A stretch of 42,243 nucleotides of DNA from an uncultured Flavobacteriales bacterium. GTDB lineage: Bacteria > Bacteroidota > Bacteroidia > Flavobacteriales_E > Vicingaceae. The notes beneath the pieces are model-generated. The model ran no database searches, had not been told where the DNA came from, and was given only the letters and a program-made list of their open reading frames with translations. The translations under genes were made by a program, and so were the position numbers. Positions 33,418-37,203 of this stretch are shown here, piece after piece; the first letter of the stretch is position 1; the number at the start of each line of letters is the position of its first letter. The stretch spans positions 1-42,243 of the forward strand of contig CAJQON010000001.1 in NCBI GenBank assembly GCA_905479995.1, in the 5' to 3' direction.

Positions 33418-33462
33418 ATGCGCCTAACACTAAAAATTGTACTTTCGTTACAAACAAACACT

Positions 33463-34467
33463 ATGGAACAATACAGCACCTTAAAAGAATTAATTGCCAT
33501 CGATTCGCCAACGGGATATACCGATAATGCGAGCAAATATATTTTTGAGTTATTAACCAACTATGGATATTCTCCTGAATATACCAACAAAGGTGCGGTA
33601 AAATGTGCTTTAGGAGCCAATCCTACTTTGGCAATTGCAGGACATGTAGATACTTTAGGTGCAATTGTTTCGGGCATTAAGCCAAATGGAACTTTGGCTT
33701 TTTCTTTATTGGGTGGTTTATCTTTAACCGGAGCCGAAGGAGAATATGTTAAAATTGTTACTCATTCGGGCAAAACATTTACCGGAACCATTTTGTTAGA
33801 CAACCCTTCTGTTCATGCCAACAGAGAGAAGGAAAACACACAACGGAGCATAAAAAGTATGCACATTAGAATAGATGAAGAGGTGTATACCAAAGAAGAT
33901 GTAGAAAAACTAGGTATTGAGGTAGGTGATATTATTTGTGTTGATGTGAAGTATGAGGAACTTAAAAGTGGTTATATCAAATCACGGTTTTTAGACAATA
34001 AAGCTGGTTGTTATGTATTGTTTGAATTGGCAAGAAGACTAAAAGAGGAAGGCAAAGAAGCTCCCGTAGAAATTTTCTTTTCGAACTACGAGGAAGTAGG
34101 GCATGGTGGAACTGTTGGATATTCTAATAGTATTGAAGAATTGTTGGTAATTGACATGGGCGTTTTAGGAGATGATTGCCAAGGAAACGAGGTAAGTTGT
34201 TCTATTTGTGCTAAAGACAGTAGCGGGCCTTACGATTATAATTTTAGAAAGACTTTAGTGGATTTAGCACAAAACAATAACATCCCTTACAAGGTTGATG
34301 TTTATCCTTTTTACGGATCAGATGGCTCGGCAGCATTACGAGCTGGAAACGATTTTAGAGTAGCTTTAATTGGAATGGGTGTTGCAGCTTCGCACGGAAC
34401 TGAACGAACACACATTAAAGGAATTGAAGCAACTATAGATTTGTGTTTGGCTTATATTAACCAATAA
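33463..34467 (+). CDS. M42 family metallo-aminopeptidase
   Basis: Di-metal cytoplasmic aminopeptidase of the tetrahedral (TET/PepA-like) family, 334 residues. I start at the ATG at 33463 (MEQYSTLKELIAIDSPTG); the ATG at 33418 lies in the terminator tail. Metal ligands are AGHVDTLG (His, Asp), SRFLDNKAG (bridging Asp), SNYEEVGHGG (catalytic Glu pair), VIDMGVLG (Asp) and ASHGTERTH (His). The stop overlaps the ATG of the disrupted VOC gene by one base. Confidence 0.92.
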   Translation: MEQYSTLKELIAIDSPTGYTDNASKYIFELLTNYGYSPEYTNKGAVKCALGANPTLAIAGHVDTLGAIVSGIKPNGTLAFSLLGGLSLTGAEGEYVKIVTHSGKTFTGTILLDNPSVHANREKENTQRSIKSMHIRIDEEVYTKEDVEKLGIEVGDIICVDVKYEELKSGYIKSRFLDNKAGCYVLFELARRLKEEGKEAPVEIFFSNYEEVGHGGTVGYSNSIEELLVIDMGVLGDDCQGNEVSCSICAKDSSGPYDYNFRKTLVDLAQNNNIPYKVDVYPFYGSDGSAALRAGNDFRVALIGMGVAASHGTERTHIKGIEATIDLCLAYINQ

Positions 34468-34786
34468 TGACTGTTACTCCTTTTCATTTAGCAATACCTG
34501 TTTCAAACCTCGAAAAATGCCGAACATTTTACAGAGATGTTTTAAACTGTGAAGAAGGCAGGTCTTCAGAAAAGTGGGTTGACTTTAATTTTTTCGGTCA
34601 TCAATTCGTTATTCATCAAACCGACACACTTCATAAAACAACACCAAAAAGCAATCCTGTGGATGGAAAAAATGTTCCTGTTCCTCACTTTGGTGTGGTG
34701 CTCAATTGGGCTGATTGGAAAACTTTAGCCAGTAGGCTAAAAAAAGAAAACGTTGACTCTTTAAGAATTATTCTAAGTATAGTTTT

Positions 34787-34990
34787 TTATTCCTTCGCTT
34801 CATCATTTTCAAAAATTGATTCGATAGATAAGTGAAATAATTTGGACATTTTAAATGCTAACGGTAAACTTGGATCAAATTTTCCTTTTTCTATGGCATT
34901 TATGGTTTGTCTTGAAACAGAAAGCTCATTGGCTAAATCAGCCTGAGTCATATCTCTTTCTGCGCGAAGAACTTTTAATCGATTTTTCAT
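34787..34990 (-). CDS. Small XRE-family repressor
   Basis: 67-residue stand-alone helix-turn-helix protein: LKVLRAERDMTQADLANELS, then VSRQTINAIEKGKFDPSLPL, the classic XRE (Cro/CI) fold, and a short tail. It is the second gene of a two-gene minus-strand operon and overlaps the upstream membrane-protein gene by 4 nt. XRE-plus-membrane-protein pairs are widespread; the regulator normally represses its own operon. A GTAA-n5-TTAC dyad in the promoter (35442-35454) is a good operator candidate. Confidence 0.9.
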   Translation of the reverse strand: MKNRLKVLRAERDMTQADLANELSVSRQTINAIEKGKFDPSLPLAFKMSKLFHLSIESIFENDEAKE

Positions 34991-35394
34991 TTGTATCGTT
35001 TTTTTCCAATGAATAAACCAATCATATAGGTCAAACTTATCAAAATTACCAAAAAAGAAATCTGTGCATCTTGCGTAATTACATTAGTTTGATCTAAAAG
35101 TGAATAACCTAACCCCCCTACCACTCCGACACCTAAAGCAATGCCCATTGCATCCATTTGAATTTTCTTTTGAAGTTCGTCTAAAGAATTAATAAGTTTT
35201 CGATTCACCAAAATCATACCGCCTCCACATCCAAGGTTTATTAATATTGCTAAAACATTCAACACTGTGTTTTCGGGCCAAACAAACATAGGCCCAAATG
35301 TCGCTATTGCCATAGAAACCATCCAAAGTAATGACCAAAATTTTAGTTTTTTAGTATTAGACCTAACTTCCATATTCCATTTCTTTTCTTTCAT
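34987..35394 (-). CDS. Four-helix membrane protein paired with the XRE regulator
   Basis: 135 residues with four predicted transmembrane helices (about residues 17-38, 43-63, 84-105 and 109-130) and short loops; the N terminus MKEKKWNMEVRSNTKKLK is positively charged and probably cytoplasmic. It resembles small membrane proteins coupled to XRE regulators (DUF2178-like), but I cannot fix the family. It is the first gene of the inserted operon. Function unknown; stress sensing or defence is speculative. Confidence 0.8.
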   Translation of the reverse strand: MKEKKWNMEVRSNTKKLKFWSLLWMVSMAIATFGPMFVWPENTVLNVLAILINLGCGGGMILVNRKLINSLDELQKKIQMDAMGIALGVGVVGGLGYSLLDQTNVITQDAQISFLVILISLTYMIGLFIGKKRYK

Positions 35395-35433
35395 TGTAAA
35401 ATATATTTGATTTTTTGTAAAGTTTTATTGACA

Positions 35434-35463
35434 CAAATATAGTAAACTAATTACAAATGACAA
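35434..35463 (-). promoter_or_regulatory. Promoter and candidate operator of the inserted XRE operon
   Basis: On the minus strand TTG (35463-35461), a 19-nt spacer, then TATATTTG (35441-35434) match the Bacteroidota consensus. The spacer contains GTAATTAGTTTAC (35454-35442), a dyad with GTAA/TTAC ends, well placed for autorepression. Confidence 0.65.
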
Positions 35464-35624
35464 GCTTTATTTACATTTAGTTAAGTTTACCATTCTTTTT
35501 AAAGGAGAAGTTGGCGAGCAAGCAACACTGTTTTTTCTCGACCCCGAAGGAAATGTATTAGAGTTTAAAGCTTTTAAAAACAGCGATCAAATTTTTGCAA
35601 AATAAATCTCTACGCTTAATCATT

Positions 35625-35819
35625 CCTCCAAATTTGTCCGTTCGAGTATTTTTGAATTTTTCATTCAAAATGTATCGAGAACTCAACAAATTCCCATTTA
35701 AAATAGTTCTCGATACTATTCGCCAACTGGCGAATCACTCGAACGGAAAACCCGAATTACAAATAGCACTCCTTTTGTGTATTAAACGGCACATAAAACT
35801 ATGCTGTGCAGTTTTTGTG
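35625..35819 (+). repeat. Structured repeat R2 (about 195 bp)
   Basis: Nearly identical to R3 (36665-36858), with only a few differences. It folds as a cloverleaf: outer stem CCGTTCGAGT (35638-35647) with ACTCGAACGG (35737-35746); hairpin TTTTGAAT/ATTCAAAA (35650-35670); 12-bp stem GTATCGAGAACT (35672-35683) with AGTTCTCGATAC (35705-35716); and hairpin TTCGCC/GGCGAA (35719-35734). An unpaired tail ends in ACTATGCTGTGCAGTTTTTG. Reading frames inside it are incidental. The remainder of 35606-35899 has no gene. Confidence 0.92.
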
Positions 35820-35899
35820 TAATCATAAATACTGCGATAATAAAAATTTTAACCGAACATTGTCAAAATAAATTCATTGTAAACCAAAGAAAATAAATA

Positions 35900-36595
35900 A
35901 TGACAAAATTAATCCCTCTTTTATTGCTTGTATCCGTTATAGTAAGCTGCTCAAACAACAATAACTCAGACTCAAAAAACATAGATAATCCAAAAGAAAA
36001 TACCGATTCTGTTTTAAACCCATCACCCCATCAAGAGGAAACAGCTGTTTCTTCGGTAGAAGAAATTGAACCAGGTGACATTCCTTTAGATAGCCTGCTT
36101 TCTTTTAACTCTGAAGATGAATTGAAAAGAGTCTTTGGAGATAATATTAAAAGATCAACGGGTTATTATCCAGAAGGTATGGGAGAATACAACAACACCT
36201 TACTATTTCCAGATTCAAAAAACGAAATTGAATTTGTTTGGGCAGATGATTCCCTCACGTTTAGTGGCTTACTTTATTTTCAGCTACATGGTAAAAATAC
36301 AAATTGGAAAACCAAAGACGGTATTACCATTGGAAGTAATCTTAAAACATTAGAAGAATTAAATGGGAAACCTTTTACCTTCTTTGGACTAGGATGGGAT
36401 TTTTCTGGGATGATCAACTGGCAAAAAGGACATCTTGAAGACCGAAAAATAACTGGAAGCATAGCATATCCTGAAGATATTATGCCTATTGAATTTGAAG
36501 GCTTGTATGGTGATCATGACATTAGCAGTAAATCAGAACTTGCACTAAAAGCCCAATTGATTCTTGGTGAAATGACTTTGTCGAAAACAGAGTAG
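35900..36595 (+). CDS. Putative lipoprotein of unknown function
   Basis: 231 residues. The N terminus MTKLIPLLLLVSVIVSCSNN is a lipoprotein signal with lipobox VIVSC (Cys17), followed by a long Asn/Ser/Asp/Glu-rich linker (to about residue 60). The globular part contains LKRVFGDNIKRSTGYYPEGM and a pattern W-x-T-x-DGI-x-IG-x-x-L-x-x-LEELNGKPFTFFG ending near GWDFSGMINW. Similar lipoproteins occur in Bacteroidota without assigned function. The gene is bracketed by the 195-bp direct repeats R2 and R3, suggesting it can move or be deleted as a unit. Confidence 0.8.
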   Translation: MTKLIPLLLLVSVIVSCSNNNNSDSKNIDNPKENTDSVLNPSPHQEETAVSSVEEIEPGDIPLDSLLSFNSEDELKRVFGDNIKRSTGYYPEGMGEYNNTLLFPDSKNEIEFVWADDSLTFSGLLYFQLHGKNTNWKTKDGITIGSNLKTLEELNGKPFTFFGLGWDFSGMINWQKGHLEDRKITGSIAYPEDIMPIEFEGLYGDHDISSKSELALKAQLILGEMTLSKTE

Positions 36596-36664: not shown

Positions 36665-36858
36665 CCTCTAAATTTGTCCGTTCGAGTATTTTGAATTTTT
36701 CATTCAAAATGTATCGAGAACTTAACAAATTCCCATTTAAAATAGTTCTCGATACTATTCGCCAACTGGCGAATCACTCGAACGGAAAACCCGAATTACA
36801 AATAGCACTCCTTTTGTGTATTAAACGGCACATAAAACTATGCTGTGCAGTTTTTGTG
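36665..36858 (+). repeat. Structured repeat R3 (about 194 bp)
   Basis: Second copy of R2 in direct orientation, 1040 bp downstream. It differs by single-base changes (T for C near the start, one T fewer in the T-run before the first hairpin, T for C after the 12-bp stem). All stems are preserved and the tail reads ACTATGCTGTGCAGTTTTTG. The rest of 36596-36969 contains no gene. Confidence 0.92.
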
Positions 36859-36969
36859 CAAACCTCTTTTGCTGCTAAAAAGAAATTATAATTCTACATT
36901 TAACAATAACATCACCTAAAAATTACAGATGCTCTTACTTATTCGATTGTTAGACAAATTTATAGAAAT

Positions 36970-37203
36970 ATGCAACTTAGTAAAATTCAGAAAATAGCAA
37001 AGTTCTTTTCTTCAAAAGAAAAATTTATTGCCATTCAAAAAGAATCGAAAAAATGGGCGTTCACATGCTCGTCCTGTTCAAGAAAATCTAACATTTGGGA
37101 TATTGGCGGTATTCGTTACAAAGCGAAAGGCAAACCAAGGGCTAGTGTTAGATGCCCATATTGTAGTAAAATTACTATGGAAAAAATAGTGAAAACAGAA
37201 TAA
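36970..37203 (+). CDS. Small zinc-ribbon protein
   Basis: 77 residues. A basic N terminus (MQLSKIQKIAKFFSSKEKF) is followed by WAFTCSSCSRKSNIWDIGG and VRCPYCSKITMEK, so two CxxC pairs about 30 residues apart form a likely zinc ribbon. The middle IWDIGGIRYKAKGKP is conserved in small Bacteroidota proteins of this kind. There is no signal peptide. Function unknown; nucleic-acid binding or a metal-bound structural role is possible. Confidence 0.8.
   Translation: MQLSKIQKIAKFFSSKEKFIAIQKESKKWAFTCSSCSRKSNIWDIGGIRYKAKGKPRASVRCPYCSKITMEKIVKTE

Follow-up and report, generated by a model that had tools for sequence, protein, structure and literature searches.

How a short regulatory module, in which the list of open reading frames holds no recombinase, comes to lie inside another gene is the question raised by this locus. 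The window, that is, the whole analysed stretch of 42,243 nucleotides from an uncultured Flavobacteriales bacterium, contains a gene of the VOC (glyoxalase-like) type divided by a pair of small genes, and the word TTAAG on both sides had been read in the initial annotation as a possible mark of transposition. The answer is ordinary in kind: the gene disruption is real, it is due to a known kind of gene pair, and the joint had been misread.

The divided VOC gene and the module within it

Both VOC parts lie on the forward strand (Table 1) and, as originally proposed, match consecutive portions of one protein in other genomes. The 5' part is 60-71% identical to nine intact homologues and 49% identical to a tenth (loci L002-L011); its frame tracks them until about codon 97-99, then diverges and continues into the insert sequence, where its stop ends at 34835. 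The concern that the right-hand fragment might belong to a different gene is removed by its match to the next part of the same protein, with 71-83% identity to the ten homologues. Codon identity is 1.0 at position 35498, and VOC homology is complete from there.

Relatives with an intact gene, which had been suggested as a check, were sought in 60 genomes (its own, the genus, the family and the class), 18 of which gave a match. In the genome itself, which is 98.2% complete, the two halves are the sole VOC matches. In the other 17 genomes (18 places), the gene is intact and free of stops, with identities of 54-71% in ten of them and of 34-50% in the rest; the latter matches may be paralogues. 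The upstream peptidase gene is also present in relatives, where an M42 gene with 84-96% identity lies about 4 kb or less from the VOC gene in five of seven larger loci (L057, L058, L060, L061 and L063), immediately adjoining it in two; it was not seen in the relative stretches L059 and L062. On such comparisons, we take the VOC gene to be native and the insert to be the newcomer.

On the far side of the VOC gene, two copies of a repeat of about 200 nt, 98% identical, flank a lipoprotein-like ORF (35900-36595): one at 35625-35825, which begins 20 nt after the VOC stop, and one at 36665-36861. Counting these two, the genome has 14 matches to the repeat, most of the others covering its initial 60-130 nt; its ends look complementary by eye, and no Rfam match was found in the window. 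At 36970-37203, a 77-aa ORF with CxxC pairs appears zinc-ribbon-like by eye; its NCBIfam match to RNA polymerase subunit P is weak (E 3.4e-4) and lies far below the cut-off.

Table 1. Coordinates of the divided gene, the inserted module and the sequence elements discussed in the text (positions in the window)
Feature	Position	Strand	Remarks
M42-family peptidase gene	33418..34467	+	PF05343, E 2.9e-76; stop overlaps VOC start
VOC (glyoxalase-like) gene, 5' part	34467..34763	+	PF00903, E 5.3e-5; right edge uncertain, 34757 to about 34763
Left TTAAG	34761..34765	+	Present; at or near left joint
Insert, module with its own promoter	34764..35499 (about 0.73 kb)		Left edge known to within some nt; right edge between 35491 and 35500
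XRE regulator gene, 67 aa, CylR2-like	34787..34990	-	HTH_3, E 5.2e-14
Membrane protein gene, 135 aa	34987..35394	-	Four long helices; stop/start overlap with XRE gene
Operator-like dyad beside -7 box, TGTCAATAAAACTTTACA	35416..35433	-	Motif recurs upstream of module copies
-7-like promoter element, TATATTTG	35434..35441	-	TAnnTTTG
Second operator-like dyad, TGTAAATAAAGCTTGTCA	35458..35475	-	Aligned with site at about -81 in relatives
Right TTAAG	35481..35485	+	Part of module upstream region by alignment with L042, L078 and L079
VOC gene, 3' part (FKGEVGEQ... to stop)	35498..35605 (homology from about 35492/35498)	+	In frame

The earlier description of the insert as two overlapping genes with a promoter-like sequence and a dyad holds, and no recombinase was found among the ORFs listed within it. 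In addition to the genes, the insert contains an upstream region of about 105 nt and about 23-29 nt behind the XRE stop. The XRE protein matches PDB 9k3w (E 8.7e-25, residues 2-63) and CylR2 (1utx; E 2.4e-12, residues 3-61), as well as the Y4mF, HigA, HipB and RstR antitoxin/repressor models, in every case below their cut-offs. Its partner is modelled by AlphaFold with a mean pLDDT of 92.2 and a pTM of 0.74, the predicted helices spanning residues 2-37, 43-70, 73-102 and 112-134. For this membrane protein, there was no Pfam or NCBIfam match at E up to 0.001, no PADLOC match at E up to 0.1 and, in a fold search, no structural match at E up to 0.001. Ten members of the family alignment A2 gave weak Pfam/NCBIfam matches (E up to 1, best 0.0041), which fall in assorted unrelated families, and among the top titles listed in the literature searches none dealt with the family.

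The same genome encodes a second CylR2-like XRE protein elsewhere (L043:1442-2141, G000 contig C6), with 52% identity to that of the window over residues 1-60. It is preceded by another ORF, a 165-aa frame of membrane-protein-like appearance.

Upstream of the module copies, a dyad of the type TGTMAAG..CTTKACA is found, often near -40 and near -80. Each of 77 upstream regions, those shorter than 160 nt being excluded, carries at least one operator-like match (up to 4 mismatches of 17), and matches in both orientations are present in 38 of the 77, against 0.05 per mononucleotide-shuffle set. The sequence TAnnTTTG, which we take to be the Bacteroidetes -7 element, occurs in 44/77 of these 160-nt regions, and such a box lies between an upstream and a downstream operator match in only 18/77. 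The dyad at -39 in the window passes the 4-mismatch scan; the one at -81 has diverged, fails the scan and is visible by alignment only. Across the genome, matches to the operator word are no more numerous than those to its control (23 vs 26), and thus regulation may be local.

The joints of the insert

Literally, the word TTAAG is present at the two places where it had been reported. Its right-hand occurrence, however, lies inside the module and does not mark a joint, because the module's own upstream region extends through it in other copies. Window positions 35395-35499 align with the upstream regions of three such copies (L042, from genome G030; L078, from Aquimarina; and L079, from Flavobacteriales), and this alignment runs through and past the right TTAAG. 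Within it, AAAAGAATGGT stands at -105 from the ATG in the window and at -106, -107 and -106 in the three other copies; the probability of finding it at one of five offsets by base composition is about 4e-6. This segment occurs in 4/77 upstream regions, all in the window's own clade of seven, in which L086 has a variant, L084 is without it and the upstream sequence of L096 is too short to tell.

The spacing of the VOC codons points the same way. Eight codons separate the V/I-D position from FKG in 10/10 homologues, PY(I/V)R always being there; codon identities were computed from 10 of the 18 unbroken VOC places, with the more distant ones excluded. When TTAAG is counted once, 20 nt are left where the intact homologues have 24, and the PYIR codons are found on neither side of the insert. 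A TTAAG target duplication therefore does not fit: target bases appear to have been lost, and the right repeat falls in the module's upstream region. A shared word of this length is also frequent by chance: when two 25-nt stretches are placed at random 650-800 nt from each other, they have a 5-mer in common in 44% of cases over the whole window and in 43% locally. The presence of TTAAG on both sides is a coincidence.

A 4-nt TTTA duplication, which restores exactly 24 nt, was rejected as well, since 35477-35499 aligns with other module copies.

The module homology past TTAAG, the 20 nt in place of 24 and the chance rate of shared 5-mers together place the right joint, by alignment, at 35491-35500. 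There the donor (CCATTCTTTT) resembles the recipient, which reads ATTCG.TTTAAAGG in several of the homologues. Compared with the VOC columns, the eight codons that precede 35498 score 0.44, where random placements have their 95% point at 0.40 and their 99% point at 0.46, and the last two of these codons resemble VOC with P 0.0145. This resemblance fits microhomology at the joint and would also fit retained VOC sequence; it is read here as microhomology because these bases align much more strongly with the module. For the left joint, the position can be narrowed at best to about 34757-34763. We infer that about 12-24 nt of the VOC gene are missing, around the IEPYIR codons.

Spread of the module and its arrival in the VOC gene

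The membrane protein is sparsely distributed. It was found in 2/46 genomes of the family, in 5/395 genomes of a class sample and in 15/395 genomes of a phylum sample, its own genome being included in each count. In a scan of contigs from named genomes, the single protein as query gave nothing and alignment A2 gave matches; 139/181 candidate stretches were confirmed, and the best 80 were kept. Among these, an XRE gene follows the membrane gene in 76, the four module loci without a recognised XRE being L097, L121, L134 and L155. The window pair fits this family (alignment A3, 42 sequences), in which a membrane protein with an LDELQxKIQ stretch is followed by the XRE gene. The labels of the best 80 loci, some of them from doubtful bins, cover ten phyla: Bacteroidota, Pseudomonadota, Balneolota, Ignavibacteriota, Fidelibacterota, Calditrichota, Acidobacteriota, Gemmatimonadota, Latescibacterota and Verrucomicrobiota. 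No relative of the module was found in plasmid, phage and viral collections at the limits used.

L120 and L124, labelled Latescibacterota and Gemmatimonadetes, have 6.6 kb around the module in common at 96% identity, which suggests a mislabelled or foreign contig in one bin.

The module seems to travel between families. For instance, the tree groups an Aquimarina copy with a Catalimonadaceae copy (support 100/89), and the two share 85% DNA identity over 775 bp with nothing else matching in 12 kb. In 12 module pairs, selected for at least 76% identity over 600-1300 nt and for the lack of any further match at E 1e-20, the common stretch sets in 100-174 nt ahead of the ATG and finishes between -34 and +107 nt relative to the XRE stop; at E 1e-3, short additional matches appear in L130/L133 and L130/L139. 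These extents are a hint, not proof, of small transfer units, as the pairs are not independent and neutral flanks at 80% identity may have become unrecognisable. An empty site for the G030 module was sought in three congeners, in which the 1.5 kb behind the common gene are not alike.

In the explanation that we consider probable as a whole, the pair of four-helix membrane protein and CylR2-like XRE genes would have arrived horizontally, and a short donor fragment would have been joined into the VOC gene by illegitimate, possibly microhomology-assisted, recombination. This joining would have cost the target the bases around the IEPYIR codons and turned the VOC gene into a pseudogene. The illegitimate joining of a short fragment is suggested by the loss of target bases together with the possible microhomology.

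A larger mobile element or fragment may instead have entered the VOC gene and been trimmed by later deletions to the selected gene pair. With a left joint known within some nucleotides and a donor that is not pinned, a short insert and a larger, later trimmed one look alike, and both the missing target bases and the up to 174 nt of upstream sequence common to other copies would suit this course of events. We nevertheless regard it as unlikely, for nothing beyond the two genes and short flanks remains between the VOC halves, and these are both without stops, which suggests a fairly recent event.

Transposition, in the form of a non-autonomous cassette moved in trans by a recombinase encoded elsewhere with duplication of TTAAG (or TTTA), is improbable. 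It would account for TTAAG at both places, and its TTTA variant yields exactly 24 nt between VD and FKG. Additionally, copies in unrelated contexts have almost only the module in common (the 12 pairs), and among 75 loci, read in module orientation, L090 and L109 carry CTTAA in each flank and L122 and L152 likewise TTAAG, a count to which no chance level is attached. Against this, the right TTAAG and the right TTTA both lie within the aligned upstream region of the module. The initial annotation had pictured a jumping module or one carried by a transposon; apart from the missing duplication, the module's terminal inverted repeats are at chance level, the best reaching 13 of 25 as do 127/300 random placements. 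Nor are direct repeats between the two flanks in excess at module sites, where a search for TTAAG duplications had been suggested: over the 75 loci (window included), the longest such repeat averages 6.57 against 6.62 in re-paired controls, 67/100 of which are as high. Neither a flush target duplication (judged with the left joint known only within some nucleotides), nor terminal inverted repeats, nor near-identical genome copies, the marks of a transposase-type cassette, were found. The module is single in its genome, which gave one membrane-protein match and, in a DNA search, one full match and a 133-nt match with 68% identity in another XRE gene. The Shewanella pair stays put, as indicated by a neighbour gene common to 9/9 loci.

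An assembly or binning error that fused unrelated sequences is highly implausible even for a genome in 59 contigs (70-540 in the other genomes of the genus) that may be metagenome-assembled, since the insert is flanked by the two halves of a single gene, correctly ordered and next to the native M42 gene, and a chimera would not restore the second VOC half.

A bolder reading is a long shot. The pair might be a minimal, independently selected unit, about 0.7 kb in size, which passes from one bacterium to a distant other by an unseen joining or mobilising route, is able to land inside genes and has its edges within some tens of bases of the promoter and the last stop codon.

The locus offers a clear case in which a very small gene pair has entered a gene and brought hardly any passenger DNA with it, clear through unbroken homologues on one side and many module copies on the other. 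A plausible-looking transposition mark was corrected because other module copies assign the repeated word to the insert. The useful parts are this corrected junction, the small size of the common unit and the recurring operator, whose dyads offer a way to test what an unnamed family of membrane proteins does.

A putative switch and its known counterparts

To judge by analogy, the most likely function of the pair is that of a switch of the CylR1/CylR2 type. The XRE protein would occupy the dyads around the pair's own promoter and repress it, and the membrane protein would relieve or set this repression depending on a membrane state or signal. According to the passages of PMC3709268 on these regulators, CylR2 of the Enterococcus faecalis cytolysin operon binds its promoter, while CylR1 is a suspected membrane protein with three predicted helices that is required for induction. 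The window XRE protein is similar to CylR2 over 59 residues and is encoded beside a small membrane protein. Unlike CylR1, which is set beside it by description, the membrane protein of the window has four helices, and its gene precedes and overlaps the XRE gene. The window pair is also without an attached toxin operon: no divergent bacteriocin or toxin operon was found beside the insert, the nearest neighbours being the VOC halves, the M42 peptidase gene and the lipoprotein-like ORF (the last named by eye). Another counterpart of the regulator is the 65-aa XRE protein of PDB 9k3w, a transcriptional regulator of the PbsX family.

Pairs of an Xre protein and a membrane protein were listed by Makarova et al. 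2009 (PMC2701414) as PA2784-like, YoaS-like and PA4076-like. In the part of that paper concerned with them, the three were set aside on the ground that type II toxin-antitoxin systems were not known to include a membrane component, and a reply to a reviewer there allows that systems whose putative toxin is a membrane protein might represent new toxin-antitoxin systems. The window pair may have a toxin role, and its likeness to the listed pairs, drawn by description, lies in a conserved two-gene arrangement of Xre repressor and membrane protein.
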